Below are positions 1,641 through 64,000 of a stretch of DNA of 64,000 bases, piece by piece. Each line of letters opens with the position of its first letter. The stretch's first letter is position 1. The notes beneath the pieces were generated by a model. The model searched no databases and was not told the DNA's origin. It saw only the letters and a list, made by a program, of their open reading frames with translations. The translations under genes and the position numbers were made by a program. Source of the DNA: Paramacrobiotus metropolitanus (taxonomy: Eukaryota > Tardigrada > Eutardigrada > Parachela > Macrobiotidae); the NCBI RefSeq assembly GCF_019649055.1, contig NW_026570245.1, positions 372,001 through 436,000 on the forward strand. Direction: 5' to 3'.

Positions 1641-2968
<1,328 letters not shown>

Positions 2969-3511: not shown

Positions 3512-5789
3512 TCAGTCTTCTGCTTGGGCAATGGCAAACGCTATGATTCTGTCGACTGCGGCTTCAGTCAAAAAAGGAATTTTCTGCAAATGACGACGCG
3601 CTCCTTCTAGTTCAGCGGCATACACTTTGGCCACATCGATGGTCACGTCCGAGAGAAATTGACTAGGAGTTGGCTCCGGATAGGCTCGACCGGCTACATC
3701 CAGATCAAACGGATAAATTCCACAAGAAACAAATCCCGAAACAACATTCTTCGCCATATTCAAGTCATTCCATTTCTTTACAATATGACTGGCGAAATTC
3801 TGTCTGTTGACCTACGACAAAATTGACGTTTCGTAAATGATAAGACTTACACCGTAACAAAATTTAAATCCCATCAGGAGCATACAAATCAAATAATCAG
3901 AAAGTAACGGACAACTACTTTGCTGTACTCGTATCAATTAAAAGTCAATTTAGCAGACTGGAATCAAACCTCTTCCATAGAAGTCGGCGACAGCTGCCGT
4001 AAGTAGTCCTTCCAGTAATTTTTAACAGGGCCGCACATTTTGAGATCCCTTGGTCGCAGCTTCCCTGCCTGGCCCGAAGGAAGTGTAACGATGCTGATGT
4101 GTTTTCCCGACTTCACACACTCCGCCAGGAACTCCAGACTGAACATATGGGAGCTATGTCCGTCGAGGAAAACAACATTCTGAAAAAAAGCAGCAACAAC
4201 CAAATTATAATTCAAGCTCATATCTATAAATCGTAATTAAAAACAAAGTGATCGTTCGCTAATTACAACAGTTCTCGATTTCGACAAATAACACCGTACC
4301 TTCGCCGATGTCATTCGGGGGATGATTTTCTCTCTGACATAAGTGGAGAAGGTGGCATCATCCATCACGTTCAACGGTTCACAAACGTTATTATGCTTGT
4401 TGTTGGTCCCGGGGGAATTAGACGCATGGACAGATTTTCCATCGAAAAGGATCAAAGGCCGCACAATTTCTCCGGCAGCATTCCCTCCCGAAAGCACGGT
4501 TATCAAATCACGGTCACAGCCATCGCAGTAAGAAAGAACCTGTAGAGGCTGAACACCCTCACTGGCATACACGGATATCGCTCCATCTGCAACCTCAAAC
4601 GCCGACTCGTCGAAATTCCAGATGCCGGCTGGATCATCCAGCAGTCCATCATGATGCAATGCCGTCAGCCGTTGTATCCACCCCTCCCGATTCGCCACGG
4701 TCCATTCTTTCGTTTTCTTCTTTTTGGACAGATCAGGCTTAATTCGCTGGGCCAGCCTGGGATGCCTTTCAAGGAATTTTCGGTACCAGAATTTGGTGAA
4801 GAGTTTACGATGCTCTGGCACGTCTGTACGAAGCAGAAAACTGTTCCGAAAATAGAAAAACTAGGATTTGCATACTCGAACACATTATGAAAACACTGGA
4901 GACGTCTGCTCAAACAAAACAAGTACTTCAATTTTATTTTTATCTATCTTTCATTCTTTCTATTTATTATCATGTCGAGAATTTAATGCCACGCGAAACT
5001 GACAACAATCTAAAATGCGTTTATTCTGAAACCCGAAACAGTGCATGCATTAACTCGCAATAATAATACTTAATCAAAACAGGTTTAACTAGTACTTCGC
5101 ACTCATCGCAGTATTAATTTTAAATACGGCAAAACAGCAAAACACTTTAAAACAGCAAAAGTTGTCTTTTAAATTGTACATTCAAATTATCATACTTTAT
5201 AGATATTCAGACGGCTTGATATAGGAAACGTATGGGCCTACTATGGGGATCGTCACAATAACAAAAACATAACTGTCATACTTGAAGTTTGAACTTCGTA
5301 GTTCGTACCTTTAGATTTGGCCAGCAATGGAACAATCCGCTGCAAAATTCGACGGTCCAATGGCAAACCATTTTCGGCACATTTCAACAGCAGACTTTCT
5401 ATGTAATTTTCTTCCGCGTCCGTGAACTTCCTTTTATGAGCTCCTAGCGTCCCTCGTTGGATCCCTTTCAGCTTTTCCCACAGCGTGGTGTATGGAACGT
5501 GGTATCGTTTGGCAGCTGCGTACTGCGAGAGGTTGCCTGATTCGACGGCTTGTATCGCCAGTGCCATACGATCGCTGACTTCTTGTGGCAAAAAATTATC
5601 ACTGCTGGATTCTTCCGCGCTAAGCGGTAAGCCTGAAATCTCTTTGGTGCGCGTACGCGGAGTGTCGATTCGGGATGAAGAAAATAAACTGGCAGGGAGG
5701 CTCAAGTCACTGCTGAGGTCTCCGCCATCACTCGCAATCGCAGAGGAAGAATATTCCTCTGCGAAACCTGGTGATTCCATTTGCTCCAT
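3512..5789 (-). CDS. pogo/Tigger-type DDE transposase (HTH_psq + DDE_1), intact and spliced
   Basis: Predicted 500-residue transposase or transposase-derived protein of the pogo branch of Tc1/mariner (CENP-B/Jerky/Tigger relatives). Exons: 5789-5309, 4823-4300, 4179-3970 and 3799-3512 (stop 3514-3512). Phases 1, 0, 0 close with no disruption. N-terminal acidic/Ser-rich tail, then a helix-turn-helix at about residues 70-110 (SQYAAAKRYHVPYTTLWEKL, psq-like). A basic segment follows, then the catalytic core: first Asp in IWNFDES (about D232), second in VFLDGHSSH (about D341), third in LRPRDLKMCGPVK (about D380). All three family-typical acidic positions are present. ATG 5789 opens the frame. I found no terminal inverted repeats or TA duplication, so it may be domesticated or an element with ends I could not recognise. 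It could also be described as a Jerky-like gene. Confidence 0.85.
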
Positions 5790-6798
5790 TATTACAAAGT
5801 GGCGAAGGCAGTGCCATAAACAGTGATCTCAATTACTGTCTTCGGAAAACACTCTGGTTTCGCGCAAAAAGCAAAGACAACGGAAAGCACAAAGCGTAAC
5901 TCATCATAACTGAAAAGTGAAAACGTAGCTGCAGCGGAAAAACATTCTTTGAACGCGCTCTCATGCTGCCATCCCTGGGTGGCTGCCACTGGGTAGTTGT
6001 ATAATTTGTATTGCACAGGCACGGCCAAAGTTGCCGCCAAACCAAAGTATTTTTCTTTCTAATGGAAAGTAAGAAAACCACTGTTGTTCATTTTTCTGCT
6101 ATTAAATAAGTCATCTAAAATAGTTTGTTTCGAATATGCCAGTATATCAAATTGTTGCGAAAACATGTCAAAGTATTAAATCGCAGTTCGAATGCGATGC
6201 TCTTATAGGTCTTTAAGTATACTCGTACGATTTGCCGTAGAAAAAATCGATGACTTTATACAGATTGCAAACCAGCAAGCAACGTGACCAAACAAACATT
6301 TTAATTAAAAGGGCAGTGATCATTGGTTACAGTTCACCCCAGACAGCATTAATAATAATCCAAGAAAAACCATCCCAAAAACTCTTTAGAAATCCAATCA
6401 ATTCCAGCAGAAAAAAACCATCCAACACACACAGCTCCAATAAAAACCAAATACGGAACAAAGGATTATTTTTCTCCAGGAAAACTTCAAACAAAACAAA
6501 ACAAAAAATAGTTTTAATAAAATCAAAAATTAATTAAAAAATCCAATACACATATCCCGGACCAACCACGCGAAATAATCAGTCTTTGCACAAAATACAC
6601 GGAAAGATCGCGCATACCATCCACACTCTTCTGCCCGTTGTCTTCCCAATCTGGATTCTGTACAAACTCGTCTATCCATATTTTCCATACAAATCACGAA
6701 AATCCATCCATGAAACCATAACGGTGCGAAAGAACGCCTTCCACATTAACCGGGTATCAATGGAAAAATCAAAGAACGCTGGCACAGCTGTCGTCTTT
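5790..6798. other. Region between transposase 5' end and AF10 3' end
   Basis: Tail-to-head spacing of two minus-strand genes. The AT-rich segment 6240-6780 is most simply the AF10 3' UTR. No coding exon is recognised; the 82-95 codon ORFs here have low-complexity composition. Confidence 0.35.
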
Positions 6799-52941: not shown

Positions 52942-54275
52942 ATGTTCCGACAAAGCCGACATGATTCGTTAAACGATTTTTTTGTCGTGGAAACCGAAGG
53001 ACCAGACGGTTTGTTCTATCATGGAACGGTGGTGGATGCCGACGAAAACGATATCCTGCTTGTTGACCACCACTTGCCAAACGTGCCTCCGATTATGACA
53101 CTTTGTTCTCTCGCATTTAAGTGTGATCCCCGAGATTTCCTCACCAGCACTACGGACACTTTGGACGCTGTAGACGCTTTTATCATAACACAGCTATGCG
53201 AAGATATGCCGTGGGTGTGGTATCCCGGTAGGTTGTTGGCAGTGAATTGGCCGGCGTTTGCTGTTGTTAAGACCGAAATCTTTGGCGAGCAAAAGATGCG
53301 TGTTGTTCCCTGTGATCATGTCCGTCTGGCCAACCATCCACGAATTCCAGTTATACAGTGCTTCACTTATGTGAAAGCATCCTTTCTTCTCCCGCAGTCA
53401 ACGCTTTTTCGGCAAACTGAGGAGTTTATGAAGTTGTGGAACAATTATTTCGACAAGGAACGAAGCAAACAAGGGAAAGCCGTTGCAGTCGCCGATGGAC
53501 AGGTCATATGCTTAGGAAGCCAGTACTGGATAGACAAAGTCAAAGCACGGATAGCATGTAATGTAGGTTTCACAACCGAAATAATTTTTCACCAAGCAAT
53601 ATATAAGGATGGTGATCTTGTCCTGACGTAGGCGTTACGTTGTTCTAGGATAAGTACGGCGGGCGTTTACTGGAAACCCTTATGGTGGACGCCGAAACTA
53701 ATGTATGGCGTCAGAAGCAAGTACCCCTGGACCAGGCAACGTCACTAATGATGGATACAACCCCCGAATGCAAATCCCTTACCGAGTATCCACCAGATAG
53801 GAACATTATCAACACCTTGCCAGATGCAGTTCTGGGAAAAATCTTTGCCTTTGTGGATGTATGTGAGCAATCACGCATTCGTAGGGTGTGCCGGTTGTGG
53901 AGCAGACTCCTGCCGCTGTGCACCACCCTGAATCCGCAATCATTAGCTTTTTGTGTTAACGGGCCGCGATTTCCAGGAGACACCGATCGGATATTGAAAT
54001 TTGCATCTTGTTTGTGTCAGTATTATTCGGAACAGGTGAACGACATTGTTTTATTGGGCAATGCTAGTGATGGCGGGGCGTTTAACGATTTTATACAGGT
54101 TTTGGTGACAATGCAGGGAGTTTTGAAAAGGCCTCCGCTCAGACGACTGATAGTGTCTACAGTTGACCTTTCAAATAATACTACCTCAAACGGTGTACTA
54201 GTGAATAGCCTTCTTTTAGCAGCACACCCGTGTTCTCATTTGGGATGCGAAGAATTCATCATTGATTGTGGGTAA
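52942..54275 (+). CDS. F-box protein with N-terminal beta-rich module, tandem copy 1
   Basis: ATG 52942. Exon 1 runs 52942-53562 and exon 2 runs 53649-54275 (TAA), joined across an 86-nt intron in phase 0; about 415 residues. Residues 1-207 form an unrecognised module: VETEGPDGLFYHGTVVDADE, later PWVWYPGRLLAV and MRVVPCDHVRLA. The two similar GLFYxGTVVD / WYPGRLLAV units look like a pair of small beta-barrels (Tudor/Agenet-like, my inference). Then an F-box at about residues 245-285 (NTLPDAVLGKIFAFVDV...RIRRVCRLWSRLLPL), which would recruit Skp1 for ubiquitin ligation, and an LRR-poor C-terminal region (VLKRPPLRRLIVSTVDL). Compared with copy 3 the C-terminus stops about 60 residues early (...FIIDCG), which may be a truncation or a missed exon after the GTAAAC at 54270. 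Confidence 0.65.
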
Positions 54276-55206
54276 ACCAGATCTGCGGATGCATCGGACC
54301 AGTGTAATGCCAATTGTTCTAATTACTTGCGCTTTGAGGCTTGAATATTTTGTGATACTGTCATACTGCGAGTCTGCGACACTTTGTCATCTTAACCTCT
54401 GCTCTTATAATAGCATTCCAAATTTTGTATGCACGCATCCACGTTGTCGAGCGCGTATTGTATAGCTATGAACCCGTCGCTGTGTGAATAGAAGTAAGTA
54501 AAAGATGCATAGTATCATAATATAATGCGGATGTACAGTTATTTTGTTAACTTATTAGTAAATTTGAGTAAGTGAAGAATTGGTGGTTGTTTAGCGCATC
54601 TACGAGCCGTGTATAGATTGCCTCATTACGAAGAGTCAGACATCTTTCTCTGTTGGCTGGTATACGGCCCGTGTTATTTGTTATTTGTTATTGTGTTATT
54701 GTTAGTGTTATTGTTATTGTGTTATTTGTTAGGAACCACAGAAAAACGGCTCAGGTTTTACTCAACGGTTAGCCTCGCAATGGGTTAACAAATTTCGACG
54801 GTGAAAACTCTGTGTAAACTGAGGAGCCTCGATAACCGCTTCCCATATCTGTAAAGTGGCTAGCCATGAAAATCACAGGTTACACAGTACGTACTCGTAT
54901 ATTGCAAAAAGACTACAAATACATTTTAATGACGCACATTATAGTGTTCTCTACTTTGTTATCTTATCAATGCGTTCTCGAGAAGCTACACAACCTAAAT
55001 AAATACACAAAACCTGAAATCTTTCGGCATTGGGCGCAAAACCAATAAAGTTCTTCGTGCAATTTTCAGAATGATCTTAAACTGCTGACAAACTGCAAAA
55101 ATTGTTGCCCTTGCAATAGTTAGATTTGTGCTGTAGCACGATTGCTCTTATTACCAACGCTTATTCAGTATCAAAATCTGATTGTCTTGATTTTTTCAAA
55201 CCTGAC
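54276..55206. other. Spacer between F-box copies 1 and 2
   Basis: AT-rich, with a simple repeat at 54671-54731. The 60-67 codon ORFs show no family features. The promoter of copy 2 would lie here. Confidence 0.35.
54671..54731. repeat. TTATTGTG-type simple repeat
   Basis: Irregular tandem array of GTTATT, TGTTATT and GTGTTATT units, about 60 bp. Confidence 0.85.
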
Positions 55207-57091
55207 ATGTTCTCTCAAAAGCACGATTATTTTTCGGTGGAGACCGAAGGTCCGGATGGGCTCTTCTGTGAAGGAACGGTCATCGATGTTGACGACTTTG
55301 GTGTTCTACTAATTGACCAGCACATTCCCAATACTCCACCCGTTTGGACACCCTACTGGCAAGCGTTCCAGCGTCATAATTATGCAGAGGAGTTGTGGGC
55401 ACTTCTCTCCCATAAGCAGCTTTCTCTACCAACAAGCGTACTCGTCAAAACACAGCTGAGCAACGATAGGCCCTGGGTATGGCTTCCGGGTGAACTTCTG
55501 GCGTTTTACTTTATTGCTGTTGTGAAGATCGATGTCTTTGGGGAGAAAATTCATGTTGTACCTTATGATCACGTTTGTTTGGCCAGCCAGATGCGTAACC
55601 TAGTTATGCCGAATTTCCATTATATCAAAATGTGCTTTGATCTTCCGCAGTTGTTTTCCTTCTGTACTACTGAAGAGTTCATAGCATTGTGGAATAGACA
55701 TTTTCCCATGGATTCCTTCAAGAAAGGGAAAGCAGTTGCTTTTGTTGATAACAGGGTGGTGTGTTTGGGAAATAACGACTGGATCAGAAACATCAAAGAA
55801 ATATTATGGACTAGCGTAAGCCCTGTAATCTCCGCGCAGCCGCGTCGGTCCTTAAAAAGCGTCAATAACTAATACTGTGACCTTTAGGAACAATGTCAGT
55901 GAGACAGTAACTTGGCGTACACTCTTACAGTACTTGTTTCGAAATAAACTTGGGAGTTAGAAGTGCAGTAATGATGTTTTTACAATTAGGATGACGGTCC
56001 GGATCGATTAATTGAAAGCCTGATGTGTACATACCAACGAAATAAAGAGCCCACACCACCAGCATCTCCAGGTCAAGCCCAAGTGGAATGTAACACAAAA
56101 ATCAATAAGTGCTGTAATAGCTAAACAAATGTTTTGCTAGGTGTCCTGCTTGAAAGAAATCCCGCGTTTTTGGATGTGAAGGCCGAACCCAACTTTATGA
56201 GGACCCACCACCTTACAACGTTATAAATACCTTGCCGGATGCCCTGCTGGCCAGAATCTTCGCGTTTTTTGACTTGCAGGAATAGTCTCGAATTCGTAAT
56301 GTGTGTCAGTTGTGGAGCAAACTGCTGCCACTTAATATGACCCTCAAACCGCAATCCATATGGCTTCGCATTAATCAGCCGTCGGACGGAAATCTTCAGT
56401 ACATTTTCGAGCTCGCATCTTGTCTGAATGAGCATTATACAGATCGTGTTAATACCATTATACTGTCTGGAGATCTTTTGGACGGCGGTTTTCATCGGAT
56501 AGCAGCAGCATTGACAACTATGCAGGCGGCCTTAAAGGACGACCCCCTCTGGCGCAACTGCAAGTGTCCGATGTTGCGTTCCCTTATTTCAGTAGAACTC
56601 GTCGATTCCTTGCGAATGGATTTCACAAGTGTTTTGTGTCAGCAAACAAGCCATGCAGGAAGCTCGTCTTCGACAATGTAATCATGCCGCTGTTCTCTGA
56701 TTGCGAAAAAGAGCGGTTGGGTAAATGGAGCGTCAGGATACACGGTGTAGTCGATGTGTCGGCTGCTGACTACGAGTGTCGGTTATGGGATCTGGTGGAA
56801 ACGGCCATAAATGTGGATGCAGAGCGACAGGATATTACAAAATTGCACCATTGGGTCCGGGTTGCGTACTTCTATAGAGAAAACGGTTATCCATCCCGTT
56901 TCCGCTGCCTAGAATCGGTATGTAAAGTACAGGAATACCTCACACTTCTGTCCAGCGCATGCCACATTGCAGTTATTAGACCCTTTCGATGCCTGTCTTT
57001 TTGTATCATGGACCGTGCTGGAAAAGTTGAAGTAATATTTTTCAATTTCAAATATCATACTTGTATAGATATTTTATGTCAGCGCGGATAA
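55207..57091 (+). pseudogene. F-box family tandem copy 2, disrupted
   Basis: The N-terminal module is open from ATG 55207 (MFSQKHDYFSVETEGPDGLF) to a donor at 55816 in the same phase and place as copy 1. In the second part the frame is lost between LLERNPAFLDVKAEPNF (about 56140-56200) and PPYNVINTLPDALLARIFAF (about 56210). A TAG at 56284 replaces the CAA of the EQSRIRR segment of copy 1, and another frameshift near 56550 separates ALKDDPLW from the continuation PCRKLVFDNVIMPLFSDCE. The C-terminal tail aligns with copy 3 and is longer than copy 1. At least one nonsense codon and two frame breaks in the F-box half make the full product impossible. The intact first exon could still yield a module-only protein. 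Confidence 0.75.
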
Positions 57092-58391
57092 GGACAGCAA
57101 AAACAGCGTTTATTTACTGTCTGGGTTTCTTGTTAGACCCTAATACATATTATACATGTAAGGGACTACAAGGGTGAAGGGAGTGACAACAACAACAAAA
57201 ATGTAATTCACATGCTTTTATTAAAAATACAAGAAAATATGAAGAGCCAAAAGTGATAAAGGTCACCAATTTAATATCATATTTTTTACAGATAATTAGG
57301 TTTTACCAAAATATGGATCCACGCCCACTCGCTTGCCATCTATACCTCCCCGACGATGCAACTCGTGTGCCTGATGTACTTGACCATCTACATAGTCTCA
57401 ACAAGCTCACCTTATTCGCGATGACGGCGTTGTCGGAAATTATGGAATAAGACCATATATACAAATTTGAAACTGCCATTGATTCGTTTAGTAATTTCTG
57501 GTGACCACGTGCACACGACATGCCGGCCAATAGGATTATATGAACTGTCACTGCACTAATGGAACCATGCTCGCCGGGAACTTTTGTTTTTGTTTGGGTT
57601 TCCTTTTTAATTTTGCATTTTCAATAGACTGTGGCGAAGTATAAAAGCGGTTACCGTTCACTTCGGCCGTTTTCATTTCGGCTTTCGGCTTTCATTTCAT
57701 TTCGATTTTGGCCAAACGTAACTTCGTCCATGTTAAATTTCGACTGACACACTTCCCTTAATCCACTGTATCAAGCGCTTGTCGGTTTTAAGAGTTTTAT
57801 TTTAAACCGTACAATTACGTTGTCAACACCATATTTTATTGTGCTAAGAAAAGCCGGTTAAAAATGATGTCATGCAGCATGATGTCATCAGTAGTATGAT
57901 TCAGAATTTGTGTCAATGATATGAGCACTTCAGTAAAGAGCACATATGCAGAGGTTCATTTTTGCTTAGCCTTACACGATGAATAAACCTATCTGTTTTC
58001 TTATCGATTGGTGCAGTGCGTTTTCATCGTTTGTCTACGATTACTCAAGGATAATTAAATTTTGCCGTGTTCGTATTAAAGCGTTGGCAGTACACCCCAA
58101 TCCATCAAAGCGTATCTCTTCGACCAACAGATTACGCTAGGAAGCAACAGGAAGCAATACTGTGCATATCGGTTGGGGGTGGGCAGCAGTGCAGCAATAA
58201 ATCAGCAGACAACGCCGGAAGTCTGGATGAGCACGCCCGAAGTCTGACGCTCTGATCCTTCGAGCACTCGTTTGACTGACAGGTAACACCTAACCAACGT
58301 GCACGTCCTCGGACGCCAGTAGTGCGGTAGTCTGTAGATGTGAAACGTTTCTATTTTGCAGGGAGATTTTTGACTAATCACGGAAACAGGA
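57092..58391. other. Spacer between F-box copies 2 and 3
   Basis: No N-terminal module is found upstream of copy 3. There is a short TTTCGGC/TTTCATTTC-rich tract at 57663-57710. Possible 5' UTR sequence of copy 3 with an acceptor TTTTGCAG ends at 58361. Confidence 0.35.
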
Positions 58392-59159
58392 GTGACAACA
58401 TGCACCGTTTATCTTCCGGAAGCAGCCCAGGTGGACGACGATTGCCATCAGTACGATGTGGAATGTCCTGCGAACATATTACCGCAACACTTCAGCACCA
58501 TGCCGGTCGACGTTCTGTACGACATCTTCTCCATGTTGGATATCTTTCAGCAAATAAAGATCCGTAAAGTCTGTCGATTTTACAGCGCTTTTCTTCCACT
58601 ATGTGAAACTTTCCGGCACCGATCGCTGTATATTCATTTAAACGAAGCACGATTTCCCCGTGATACTGAGCATGTGCGGGAGTTCGTACACTGTCTGAAT
58701 GACTACTACGGTGACCGAGTGGACACGGTTCTTTTATCTGGTCAGCTCGATGACAATGTACTCACTGCGTTCAGCACCATGATAATGGTTCTTAAGCGGT
58801 CACCCATCAAAAGACTGATTTTGTCAAATGTCGACGTTCGTCTACGTGCACCATCCACAGCGATACATGACTGGTTCCCTCAACGCTTCGTGAAGTTCGT
58901 GGGACAAATGCATTCGGCATGCAGCAAGCTGATTTTCCGACGAGTGACCTTTACTTTACTGTCTAATAATCATCACGAGAGCAACGTGGATATGGATAGC
59001 AAGGTTTTGCGAATAGTTGGAGAAGTTGGGGTTTGCGCTCCTGCAGGGTACGAAAAGCGGCTTTTTGAGCTTGCAGAGGATGCTATAAAACAGTTCCATA
59101 TGGAGCGTTCGAAGCAACCAAATGCCGATGACCAACGGGAAACAGCTGCAGCCGGATAA
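58392..59159 (+). CDS. F-box protein, tandem copy 3 (no N-terminal module)
   Basis: Open frame to TAA at 59157-59159, up to 255 codons. The first ATG in this frame is about 58501 (MPVDVLYDIFSMLD), directly at the F-box; the GTG at 58392 follows a possible acceptor (AAACAG ending 58389), so an upstream exon with the true start is possible. F-box: MPVDVLYDIFSML...IKIRKVCRFYSAFLPL. Then the family C-terminal region with ARFPRDTEHVREFVHCLNDY, RSPIKRLILSNVDV and a tail ending in ADDQRETAAAG. This copy has the longest intact C-terminus but no upstream beta-rich module, so it either lost it or is spliced to a distant exon. Likely role: a substrate adaptor of a Skp1-cullin ubiquitin ligase, by family inference only. 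Confidence 0.6.
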   Translation: MTTCTVYLPEAAQVDDDCHQYDVECPANILPQHFSTMPVDVLYDIFSMLDIFQQIKIRKVCRFYSAFLPLCETFRHRSLYIHLNEARFPRDTEHVREFVHCLNDYYGDRVDTVLLSGQLDDNVLTAFSTMIMVLKRSPIKRLILSNVDVRLRAPSTAIHDWFPQRFVKFVGQMHSACSKLIFRRVTFTLLSNNHHESNVDMDSKVLRIVGEVGVCAPAGYEKRLFELAEDAIKQFHMERSKQPNADDQRETAAAG

Positions 59160-59557: not shown

Positions 59558-61419
59558 ATGCACTCACACTGCACTAGCAGACGTGAAAATTTGTTGCTTA
59601 CGGTAAACTTGTTCAGTTGTGGCGCCATGAACACTCACGGTCCCACATATTCGCTACTTTCCGTTTTTCTTTTGACCTTGAATTCTGATCAGACAGAATG
59701 TACTCATGATTCCTCAACCAAAAAGAAAGTCACTACGGCAAAGGAACGGGTCTATAACATCTTGAAAGCAGTGTACTGGATAATTGTATGCTTCTTTACC
59801 TTGGTAATGATTCGCAGTTTTAGTCAAACGATCGATACGTTTACCAAGTTCATTTTAAACGGCAAATATGTTATTAAGCAAACCGTCGCTATTGTCGTTA
59901 TTGGGATGTTTGCCAGACAAAGACGGAATTTTCACACAGTTTGCACTACGGAGCATTCGTTCATCGTTACAGCTGAGCAGCTCCCAAACACCACTTTCGA
60001 CTATTCTACCATTCTGCAGAAGATAAAAAGATTCGAACGCTTGTTTTTATTTGGCACAGCAATTCTGCATGTGACAGTCTACGTAGCGGGTTGTGTGGAC
60101 TACGCCATCGCTCTGCAGTATCAAGTGTGGAGTCCTGCGAAATTTGTCACCGATTTACCACTAATTCTGCCCTTTTGGGCGTGGCAAGTAGCCACGTTCC
60201 CTCTAACAAGTTTCGTGTGCTTGGTTGCAGAATTGGTCATAATTCTTTTCTGTCTCAAACTTCATTCAGTAAACTCCATCATCACCAATCTCAGTTCTGC
60301 GATTGAGGCTAAAGGTCATGTTTGGAATGCGGCTTTTAATGGCAAACAAGACAACGACATCCGGCGGTTTCACCGTTTTGTAACTGCATTGCGCGCCTGT
60401 TGCGATTCTGTGGAACAGACTTTCTCAACAATTCTTTTCCTCTTCATAGGCGCTAATGGTGCCGTTATCTTAGGGTTTTTCCAAGGCTTCACCATACAAC
60501 AACCAAGCGCAATGCTCGTCGTGATAAATGTTGGGTCGTTTGCCTGGAATTTGGCACAAATCATTGTGCCGATTGTGTTTGCCATCAAGACTCAAGATCA
60601 GGTAGGTTTCGGGTGGCAGTACCCGAAGTTTATGTAAAATTTACAACTATTCGCTTTTCTTTCTCATCCCTTTCGGTTAACCGCCTTAATGTGCAGTATT
60701 GTACTTATTACGTTGTACAATACGTCGTATATACAATATTTTATTAAATAACGACTGCAGAGTAAAACTACTTCGTTGTAATACAGCAGTTTTTCTGAAT
60801 TGCGAGTGGATAAACACCAGCATAAAGGTACTTATTGAAAGCATCAGAAAGTTCACAATTAAAGGCAGCGGCTAGCGAATCCACAGATACGGGTATACGA
60901 AAACAGCACTGCAGTATCGTAATTTAATGCACGCCAGTCAATAATGTCATATAAACGCAGCGTTAAGGCAATGCCACTGCCCACATTACATTTCTATCAA
61001 AATATTTGTCTGCAGGTAGCCAGTCTTGTAAACACGTTGCGAGAACAGCTGGAAATGGATCCAAATGGGAGTCCCTTGGAGGCTTACGCGATGAGGAACA
61101 TGGATAATTTGAAGCACACATTGACTTTACTGTCTATATCGCCTATACGCCTAACGGCGGGAGCTGTTCTTTACCTTGACCGTGGATTGATGCTTGCGGT
61201 ATAAAATTATCTACAGATATCTAAAAACGTTATTCATAATCGGAATCGTTGGATGTCTTCTTTACCTGGTTAGTTACAAAGATAAGCGGCCTTGTATTGC
61301 AGCTATTTGGATGCTTTGCGACGTACGTCCTGGTTATCCGCGACCTTCTTAACGGAGAAATCACGCAAACAATGCTGTCCAACCAGAGCGTAATTGAAGA
61401 ATTTGAAATGATGGAATAA
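59558..61419 (+). CDS. Gustatory-receptor-like seven-transmembrane protein (447 aa)
   Basis: Exons: 59558-60601, 61016-61198 and 61303-61419 (TAA 61417-61419); both introns are phase 0. Multiple hydrophobic segments: VYWIIVCFFTLVMI, IVVIGMF, LFGTAILHVTVYVAG, ATFPLTSFVCLVAELVIILF, TILFLFIGANGAVILGFF and VINVGSFAWNLAQIIVPIVF. The last two exons encode LLSISPIRLTAGAVLYLDRG, then LMLALFGCFATYVLV, which match the conserved C-terminal signature region of insect-type gustatory/odorant receptor (Gr/GRL) proteins: an S-P-...-T-A-G patch before TM7, then T-Y-lV. These are ligand-gated channels with intracellular N-terminus. ATG 59558 is the first; M24 (59627) is an alternative. The C-terminal tail after TM7 is longer and more acidic (EEFEMME) than in most insect Grs. 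Confidence 0.75.
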
Positions 61420-61946: not shown

Positions 61947-64000
61947 CTAGTATAAACCATTCTGATAGACAGACGTATACACGACGGTATCATCAACATC
62001 GTTACTAGCCTTCTTAATTAAAGTTTTCCGATACAAAATGTCCCCGTCTTCGGCACAATGCCGATGCATCCGCCGATTGTGAGTCCCGCGAGATAATCTG
62101 GCGTTCTGGCGTCGTATCCCTTGTGACATGTGGAAGGCTCCATAGATGACAGGGTTCAGCACGGAACTGGTCATACCTAGTAGCGCCAAACACCAAATTA
62201 ATCATCCACCACAGAGAAGAGTTTAACACGAAACTGCATTGTGCGCAGTTCCACGAAAATGGTCTTCAGGCAACGTACCGAAGCAGAAGATGTACTGGAA
62301 CATATCCAGCGCTTCGTTGCTGGATTCCTTTAACCAAAACTCCACAACAATGTAGTACAGTAAAGAAATGTAGTAAGGAACTGCAAGAAAATGGTACATT
62401 AAAACAATGCTGCTGGTGACCTTTGACAACCCGCATAGCTTACGCCAACAAATTAAGAATGTGAGGATGACCAGTATCGACACCCATAAGGACTTCATCG
62501 TAGCCTTCCGCATTAAGGCCTGACGTTTGGAGTTGGATAAGCTGGCATTGGTGTGCGTAGATTTCGTTGAAGACATGCGATTGGATTGCATGATTGGCTG
62601 CGTCAGTCCTACCAATATGCACATTTAGTTAAAATGTAACAAACTCAAATGTAATACTTTGCAACGCCAGCTACCGTATATGCAAACTCGCAGTTACGAA
62701 AACTGAACGAAGTGCCGCATTCATTAACTGCATGAAAAAGGTGTGGCAGTTTTACAACAGAGTTTATTGGAATACGCCCGTACATTCAACCCACTACGAC
62801 GCGTAACTGATTACCATAATATTCTCTTATTACTTCGTTGAAATGAATCGCCGAAGCAGAAAGCTGTCGTCTTTGATTACGGAATTATCCTTCTCTCTTG
62901 CAAGATCGAATCATCTGCGTACATATATTTTTGTCATTCGACACCTTTGTTATGGTATAGTGTGGAAATTAGTGGAGCCTTGATATGCGGAGCAGCGGAA
63001 GTAACGATCGGCTTGGTGATTGAGCCACTCGGTACTTTGAGGTCGTACAAGTGCGTATCCAATTAGAAAACGTGAGCGATCCTCATTCACGATCGTATCG
63101 CCTGATTGGTCGCCACGCGGTCGTTACTTGCTGAATGAATGAACGGCCACGACAAATTACGTTATGCCGCTTACGTCGGCTGGTAATGCTTGGAAGTTTT
63201 TGCCCTTTTCCGTTCAATAATTATTATTCTTTACCTGATCATGATGCAACGATAGAACTACTGCACCGGCTGTGCTAATAATTTCTATGATGCTGATTTC
63301 TTTACGGTTATAATCACGCTATTTGTTAGTACAGAGACACACAGAACCTTCTTCGGAATTTTCCGCCAGGATTGGTTGGGAATGGGAAAATATTTTTCAC
63401 ACGTTTTTCTAATGGACGATCAGCTTGTATTTCAAAGTAATCGTGCATGTGATGCAGTACCCACGGTTTATTCGCTGAAATCCAGCGCGAATGCATCGCA
63501 TAGAAGTATTGATGATTCCGTGGATTACGTAATTACCGTTCGCCGGTAGCAGTTACAACCAACAAGAATCCGATCACTTAATTACGAGTATAAAGCAAAC
63601 ATGTTTTGATGGTGTAATACGACAATGGCTGTACTGTTACTGTACAGACACAGTTTAAATAGTAACACGTTTGCTAACTATGCTTCAGTGTGATTTTATG
63701 ACCGTGAAACTACCCGCAGGAAGTAAAGCAATTCATGAGATGCATCAATGCACATACACATGATCAAATATACATGTATTATGTAGAATAGCCTCTTTTA
63801 TTGAAAAATAATTTTCTTGAAAAATCTGTGGCACTTGTTGCATTTTTAATGCGCTTACCAGCATTTGGTCCCGTGCTCGTCGATGCAAATTTTAGCTTGA
63901 GTACGATAAGGAAATAGCTAATAAAAATGACCATCAAGGGTACAGCAAACATGGCGGAAAAGGTGAACAAGATGTATGCCGGCTCCTGCCAGTATGTTGT
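61947..64000 (-). CDS. Rhodopsin-class peptide GPCR of GnRH/AKH/corazonin type, 3' part
   Basis: Four exons, the first cut by the window edge: 64000-63859, 62608-62444, 62380-62279 and 62176-61947 (TAG 61949-61947); phases 1, 1, 1 close. The visible part runs from extracellular loop 2 to the C-terminus. TM5: YILFTFSAMFAVPLMVIFIS, preceded by TYWQEPA. The third intracellular loop is Ser/Thr/Asn-rich. TM6 is SILVILTFLICW joined by splicing to LPYYISLLYYIVVEFW, giving the CWxPYY motif. TM7 holds SSVLNPVIYGAFH, the NPxxYG form shared by GnRH, AKH and corazonin receptors. The C-tail has several Ser/Thr and Tyr sites. WQE before TM5 also occurs in AKH-type receptors. TM1-TM4 lie outside, so the subfamily is not certain; vasopressin-like or another peptide receptor remains possible. 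Confidence 0.8.
62609..63858 (-). other. 1.25-kb intron of the GPCR gene
   Basis: Noncoding interval between the TM5 and TM6 exons. No ORF or element is recognised inside it. Confidence 0.6.

Follow-up and report, generated by a model that had tools for sequence, protein, structure and literature searches.

Organization of the locus

A tandem locus of Paramacrobiotus metropolitanus (contig NW_026570245.1, positions 372,001 to 436,000, a 64-kb stretch referred to below as the window) raises the question of what protein module has been joined to an F-box in a family of neighboring genes, and what such a combination might do. Three related genes or gene remains, all on the + strand, were detected within 52942-59159 of the window, which is eukaryotic by its look (introns, animal-type genes). 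F-box proteins deliver substrates to Skp1-Cul1 ligases. Our analysis suggests, with a probability of roughly 0.55, that copy 1 encodes an adaptor of a Skp1-Cul1-F-box (SCF) ligase whose bait is a strongly diverged N-terminal module of the FMRP/FXR type (Tudor1-Tudor2-KH0), followed by the F-box. The features of copy 1 are as follows.

52942..53562, + strand: exon 1, FMRP-N-terminal-like module of 207 amino acids (aa), open from the ATG at 52942; 47% identical to copy 2; top nine Foldseek matches FMRP/FXR
52975..53127, + strand: Tudor1-like unit; Pfam Tudor_FRX1 sub-threshold, profile Z 9.4, predicted local distance difference test score (pLDDT) 28-38
53170..53349, + strand: Tudor2/Agenet-like unit (PWVWYPG ... 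VVPCDHV); assigned by strand order in the model and global alignment to FMRP Tudor2
53350..53562, + strand: pre-intron part of the KH0-like unit; predicted order strand-helix-strand-strand-helix
53563..53648, + strand: intron of 86 nt, GT-AG, phase 0; position and phase common to copy 2
53649..54275, + strand: exon 2, with the end of the KH0-like unit, a linker, the F-box, a short C-terminal region and the stop; start homologous to copy 2
53814..53909, + strand: F-box; PF00646 E 1.9e-6, above cut-off

The spliced product of copy 1 is 415 aa long and open throughout; the chance of 207 stop-free codons in exon 1 is approximately 2e-6 at this base composition. The module seems to continue beyond the intron and to take in the first residues encoded by exon 2. 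At the other end, alignment shows the protein to be about 60 residues shorter than copy 3, with a larger shortfall relative to the copy 2 open frame. A GTAAAC that overlaps the copy 1 stop codon (54262-54285) is a candidate splice donor, and the C-terminus may extend into another exon. A tblastn search with the copy 3 protein detected no homologous exon 3' of copy 1 at E 1.

Probable relationship of the module to the FMRP/FXR N-terminal domain

The structure models (AlphaFold2) were built from the two window sequences only. In copy 1, the predicted order was two strand-rich units followed by strand-helix-strand-strand-helix, as in the FMRP/FXR N-terminal domain, which is composed of Tudor1, Tudor2 and KH0 according to the accessible part of PMC9603430. 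The Tudor2 unit was modeled with five strands, a short turn separating the last from the first four (pLDDT about 49-64). When the copy 1 model was compared with the PDB by Foldseek, 701 matches were returned; six had E <=0.001, with 15-16% identity, and all six were FMRP. Ranks 1-9 were occupied by FMRP, FXR1 and FXR2 (best E 7.7e-5 over 214 columns), and the first six rows were long enough to span KH0. A library of viral folds gave no match at E <=0.001 for the same model. The sequence-only reading of this locus had regarded the module as one that could not be placed in a known family; this claim is not supported, and the fold search of the copy 1 model has the FMRP/FXR N-terminal domain as its best match.

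Sequence comparisons point in the same direction. The FMRP-family profile contained FMRP, FXR1, FXR2 and fly FMR1; comparison with PDB chains covered the whole FMRP stretch that was used and a part of FXR1. In hhalign, the copy 1 module scored 30.7 against this four-sequence profile; the best of 200 column shuffles reached 22.1, and a reversed control 17.7. The signal was clearest in the Tudor1 unit, which reached Z 9.4 against the FMRP profile (none of 300 shuffles as good), and for which Pfam ranked Tudor_FRX1 (PF18336) first, albeit sub-threshold (E 0.078; 13.4 bits, cut-off 25.9). A PDB profile search of this unit listed the FXR2 Tudor domain third of three matches (E 1.3). In pairwise alignments of copy 1 residues 1-207, shuffles did as well in 2, 1 and 0 of 1000 cases for FMRP, FXR1 and FXR2, respectively. 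When Tudor1 was omitted (copy 1 residues 63-232 against FMRP 54-207, four sequences), the global alignment was better, under either gap setting, than 300/300 shuffles and 75/75 rotations; when only the PDB-checked FMRP was used, it was better than 295/300 and 298/300 shuffles and 75/75 rotations. An earlier anchored test, in which the end of Tudor1 was still included, had 1/300 shuffles as good (3-4/300 shuffles and 6-8/88 rotations for FMRP alone). The Tudor2 unit aligned globally with FMRP Tudor2 so that 0-1/300 shuffles were as good. A local profile test of the module had no equal among 400 shuffles, and 77/400 were as good in its semi-global version. When the four-sequence profile was run by hmmsearch over 1312 open reading frames (ORFs) of the window, first place went to a short, unrelated ORF (E 0.099) and second to copy 1 (E 0.54), with copy 2 absent from the best ten.

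A number of observations weigh against an FMRP-type module. The confidence of the models was low (mean pLDDT 46 and 49) and was lowest, at 28-38, over Tudor1 of copy 1. The six best Foldseek rows had a root mean square deviation of 20-22 Å and a template modeling score of 0.25-0.27, which presumably reflects a packing of the domains unlike that in FMRP. The copy 2 model had no FMRP/FXR match among the best 50 of 256, and no match of any kind at E <=0.001; its top match was a PilQ secretin (E 0.073), and single Tudor domains and KH domains came lower, among unrelated chains. The hhalign probability with four sequences was 25%, over 28 columns of Tudor1 only, and the score against FMRP alone (26.0) was equaled or exceeded by 1 of 200 shuffles. 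For Tudor1 of copy 2, Pfam placed BPL_C first (E 0.0081, sub-threshold) and did not list PF18336, and two unrelated chains outranked FXR2 in the PDB search with the Tudor1 unit. Local alignments were not significant for Tudor2 (21/300 shuffles as good with the laxer gap cost, 104/300 with the stricter) or for KH0 (107/300 and 91/300). In global alignments, 2-3/27 rotations did as well for Tudor2 alone, and 10-50/300 shuffles and 0-5/38 rotations for KH0 alone. Pairwise comparison of copy 1 with fly FMR1 was matched by 33/1000 shuffles, and the comparisons of copy 2 with FMRP, FXR1, FXR2 and fly FMR1 by 25, 21, 12 and 93 of 1000. A PDB search with the whole-module profile did not list FMRP up to E 10, and neither did those with the Tudor2 and KH0 profiles. 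Finally, of the two putative methyl-pocket residues of FMRP, F32 aligns with Asp in both copies and Y96 with Thr in copy 1, in a gap-free alignment on which this result depends.

Pfam gave no match for the Tudor2/Agenet (PF05641) or KH0 (PF17904) units. We attribute the PDB profile matches of the whole module to RGS3, dUTPase and a proton-gated channel to chance or to repeats, and likewise those of the KH0 part to designed SAKe proteins, which reached E 3e-6 although no single stretch passed. The units do not appear to have arisen as repeats of one another: no pair within a copy was better than shuffles (P 0.12-0.49), and two cross-copy pairs reached P 0.04 in the same test.

An alternative, which we consider doubtful, is that a tandem Tudor/Agenet reader from another branch of the Royal family (SGF29, Spindlin or plant tandem Agenet type) has been joined to an F-box, that the module's likeness to FMRP reflects a shared fold only, and that its ligands would be methylated or of the RGG type. 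It could account for the part of the Foldseek list that follows the FMRP rows, where TDRD1, plant tandem Agenet proteins (AGDP1, ADCP1), SETDB1, SGF29 and Spindlin appear, mixed with unrelated chains. Tudor_2, at E 0.09, is also close behind Tudor_FRX1 (E 0.078) in Pfam for Tudor1 of copy 1. Against it stand the nine best Foldseek rows, all FMRP/FXR, and the length of the first six, enough to span KH0; the sequence tests likewise fit FMRP/FXR, the only Tudor family so compared. The presence of Agenet among the domains of soybean F-box proteins, as given in an excerpt of PMC5412402, is in favor of this alternative, whereas the absence of the pocket residues F32 and Y96 speaks against it. Methyl reading, which the sequence-only reading had implied by proposing that the barrels read a ligand, was marked down because these pocket residues are not conserved; the module may instead be a bait for protein-protein contacts.

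We favor the FMRP-type assignment. The resemblance is strong for Tudor1 and moderate for the remainder taken together, and we view the kinship as real but remote, well supported for the first unit and likely for the whole. The module has three predicted units, not two. Of the two Tudor- or Agenet-like barrels proposed earlier, the barrels are supported by the low-confidence models and the FMRP sequence tests, but the count has to be revised, as a third, KH0-like unit is predicted. This unit has no GxxG by eye, as is the case for KH0 in the portion of PMC9603430 available. It should be noted that copy 1 is not a member of the FMRP family, because an F-box stands after the module in place of KH1, KH2 and RGG, and the likeness is limited to the N-terminal module.

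Copies 2 and 3 and the state of the locus

The other two copies differ from copy 1 in what they have retained.

55207..55815, + strand: copy 2 exon 1, module of 203 aa, open; 47% identity to copy 1
55816..55989, + strand: copy 2 intron of 174 nt, GT-AG, phase 0; acceptor 55990 best among 25 AGs
55990..56124, + strand: start of copy 2 exon 2, then a stop in that frame; homologous to copy 1 (DDGPDRLIESLMCT vs DKYGGRLLETLMVD)
56193..56555, + strand: copy 2 F-box remains with an in-frame TAG at 56283-56285; tblastn E 7e-34 to the copy 1 F-box part
56531..57088, + strand: copy 2 C-terminal region, shifted to another frame near 56531-56555
58500..59159, + strand: copy 3, F-box protein without the module, 219 aa from the first in-frame ATG at 58500; PF00646 21.0 bits

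The modules of copies 1 and 2 are clearly homologous, with a Smith-Waterman score of 421, whereas none of 500 shuffles exceeded 61. Their identity by codon position is 0.65/0.66/0.47, third positions differing most, and the ratio of nonsynonymous to synonymous rates (dN/dS) is about 0.32 (NG86, 0.463/1.429); the two modules have been under purifying constraint. The F-box was detected by PF00646 above its cut-off of 20.5 bits in copy 1 (28.0 bits, E 1.9e-6) and in copy 3 (21.0 bits, E 3.1e-4), and tblastn connects the F-box parts of all three copies. These parts are 53% identical between copies 1 and 2 over 106 codons and 42% identical between copies 1 and 3 over 118 codons, again with third positions differing most; synonymous rates were >2 by NG86 or not computable, and a dN/dS ratio is not quoted. 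As regards the putative Skp1 binding, a PDB profile search gave only a weak match, to a chain of entry 1fs1 (E 0.9). Both homologies had been described from the sequence, as a module of about 200 residues shared by copies 1 and 2 and an F-box shared by copies 1 and 3 and the remains of copy 2, and both are borne out.

The family is the product of local duplication, with the module kept and the F-box half broken in copy 2, and with copy 3 as an F-box-only relative. The copy 3 ORF is open from 58374 to 59159, its first in-frame ATG sits at the F-box itself, and upstream of it (56810-58500) no module remains were found, the best relaxed tblastn match having E 1.2. By eye, this upstream region has a TATAAAA-like box (57640-57646), which could be a promoter, and a 79-nt GT-AG stretch (58283-58361), which could be a 5' untranslated intron. 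The earlier description of the family as an expanding one is in line with three copies, but it rests on only these three, one of which is broken.

It is also conceivable that the locus is decaying, its copies all being remnants of an F-box family without an active adaptor among them today. The stop and frameshift of copy 2, the end of copy 1 some 60 residues before that of copy 3, and the lack of a module in copy 3, with its first ATG at the F-box, are what such decay would produce. We nevertheless find it improbable: copy 1 reads through 415 codons around a clean intron, the module of copy 2 is still free of stops over its 203 codons, and dN/dS between the two modules is about 0.32.

Joining of the module and the F-box

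The intron occupies an identical position and phase in copies 1 and 2. The acceptor before 55990 scored 23 against the start of copy 1 exon 2, and the next best of the 25 AG sites in 55830-56250 scored 2; among the 3197 + strand AG sites of the window, only two reach 23, and one of these is the copy 1 site, which does so by construction. Therefore, the peptide that follows the intron is the same in both copies, and in copy 1 its frame leads into the F-box. Because copies 1 and 2 share the intron position and phase and the exon-2 start peptide, the module and the F-box are tied into one gene. The 86-nt intron of copy 1 is thus a credible prediction: it is GT-AG, exactly 86 nt long, and in the same place and phase as in copy 2. 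That the two halves form one gene is likewise supported at the level of gene structure, in agreement with the sequence-only reading, which had put forward both the intron and the fusion. That the module and the F-box are instead two adjacent genes, as the intact module of copy 2 beside its broken F-box half might suggest, is very unlikely: the introns of the two copies agree in position and phase, and exon 2 opens with the same peptide in both (the acceptor ranking first among 25), from which copy 1 reads on into the F-box without a change of frame.

Proposed function

Beyond the domain assignment, we infer every mechanistic step given here, including the ligand class and substrate of copy 1 and its expression. 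The F-box of copy 1 would bind Skp1, and a role in selecting ubiquitination targets, as proposed earlier, may reasonably be attributed to it. The module, acting as bait, would contact proteins independently of the methyl pocket, for example the cell's own FMRP/FXR-type protein or partners of its N-terminal domain. Proteins held in this way would be presented to Cul1 by the F-box for ubiquitination. In the part of PMC5430443 that was available, FMRP 1-200 with F32 or Y96 changed still pulls down FXR1, and an FMRP-type module can therefore act without the methyl pocket. As F32 and Y96 are not conserved here, the binding of proteins independently of the pocket is more probable than methyl reading. 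A related precedent, taken from a section of PMC5688124, is that SCF-Fbxo4 recognizes Fxr1 through residues 173-192, in its N-terminal region, and that FMRP co-purifies through its partner Fxr1.

A more far-reaching scenario, which is speculative and improbable, is that lineage-specific SCF adaptors captured the FMRP/FXR module as a decoy, such that the cell's own FMRP/FXR or granule partners are degraded; this would place translation granules of the fragile-X type under a built-in control, and copy 2 might be a bait-only competitor.

If the assignment of copy 1 as an FMRP-type SCF adaptor is correct, an interaction module of the fragile-X type has been put to new use in a ubiquitin-ligase adaptor, linking FMRP-type complexes to protein destruction in an animal lineage, and F-box families can gain new baits on their N-terminal side. 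Even if the function is different, an FMRP-type N-terminal module without KH1-KH2 would inform how this module works alone.

Neighboring features and wider scans

Several other features were detected in the window. Directly after copy 3, a single-exon ORF of 359 aa (59558-60637, + strand) has several hydrophobic stretches and, by eye, resembles an orphan multi-pass membrane protein; its only Pfam match was sub-threshold (Nodulin_late, E 0.026). An ORF at 1838-2602 (+ strand) has two C2HC zinc-finger stretches (zf-C2HC_2, E 3.3e-18). Pieces resembling a pogo/Tigger-type transposase are located at 3515-5828 on the - strand, with HTH_psq in the ORF 5253-5789 (E 2.9e-10); those in 3515-4821 (- strand) were recognized by eye, with no Pfam match for 4237-4821 or 3515-3811. 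Pieces of a possible rhodopsin-type receptor gene lie at 61950-64000 (- strand), with a sub-threshold 7tm_1 match at 63782-64000 (E 4.4e-4); the pieces at 61950-62201 and 62226-62624 (- strand) were assigned by eye and had no Pfam match at E 0.01. Zinc-finger, pogo-type and G protein-coupled receptor-like pieces in the vicinity fit an invertebrate animal. Rfam and tRNA scans of the window found nothing.

Similar-looking proteins are presumably present in tardigrade proteomes. NCBIfam gave no match at E 0.1. Pattern scans gave 25 matches in viral contigs and 69 in genome contigs, with no confirmed relative in either, and tblastn of 72,556 plasmid records detected no relative; this is as expected, since the family is eukaryotic.

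Comparison with known systems

Copy 1 appears to represent ordinary F-box biology with an unusual bait, in a combination that we have not found described. No fusion of an F-box with an FMRP-type N-terminal module was seen among the matches listed in literature searches on tardigrade F-box/FMRP, Tudor/Agenet with F-box and invertebrate FMR1 duplication, in which few subscription papers were covered, and the F-box is not mentioned in the tardigrade genome paper PMC5531438.

The closest structural counterpart is the N-terminal domain of FMRP, FXR1 and FXR2 (PDB 4qvz, 4qw2, 4ova, 3o8v, 3h8z), which the copy 1 module resembles in unit order and spacing, the sequence similarity being strongest in Tudor1. 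It differs in that an F-box follows instead of KH1-KH2-RGG, that F32 and Y96 are not kept, and that identity is 15-16%. A functional counterpart may be SCF-Fbxo4 and Fxr1, in which an F-box protein is likewise linked to the FXR N-terminal region; according to the section of PMC5688124 cited above, however, Fbxo4 is a separate protein and Fxr1 its substrate, whereas here the FXR-like part would sit in the adaptor. The handing over of a target to a cullin ligase has a parallel in the methyl-binding protein L3MBTL3 with CRL4-DCAF5, although these are, in the available text of PMC5915600, separate proteins that employ another cullin, and the methyl reading reported there is not supported here. Plant F-box proteins with an Agenet domain belong to the plant lineage and are not known to us to contain a KH0 unit. 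From the excerpt of PMC5412402, they have both domains in one protein family list, and they are likened by description and not by sequence. Finally, the Caenorhabditis F-box families FTH/FBA2, as described in a part of PMC8665587, provide a parallel for the history of the locus, with species-specific tandem duplication, diverging substrate regions and purifying selection on the F-box; there, the substrate region follows the F-box, whereas in copy 1 the putative bait is N-terminal and has another fold.

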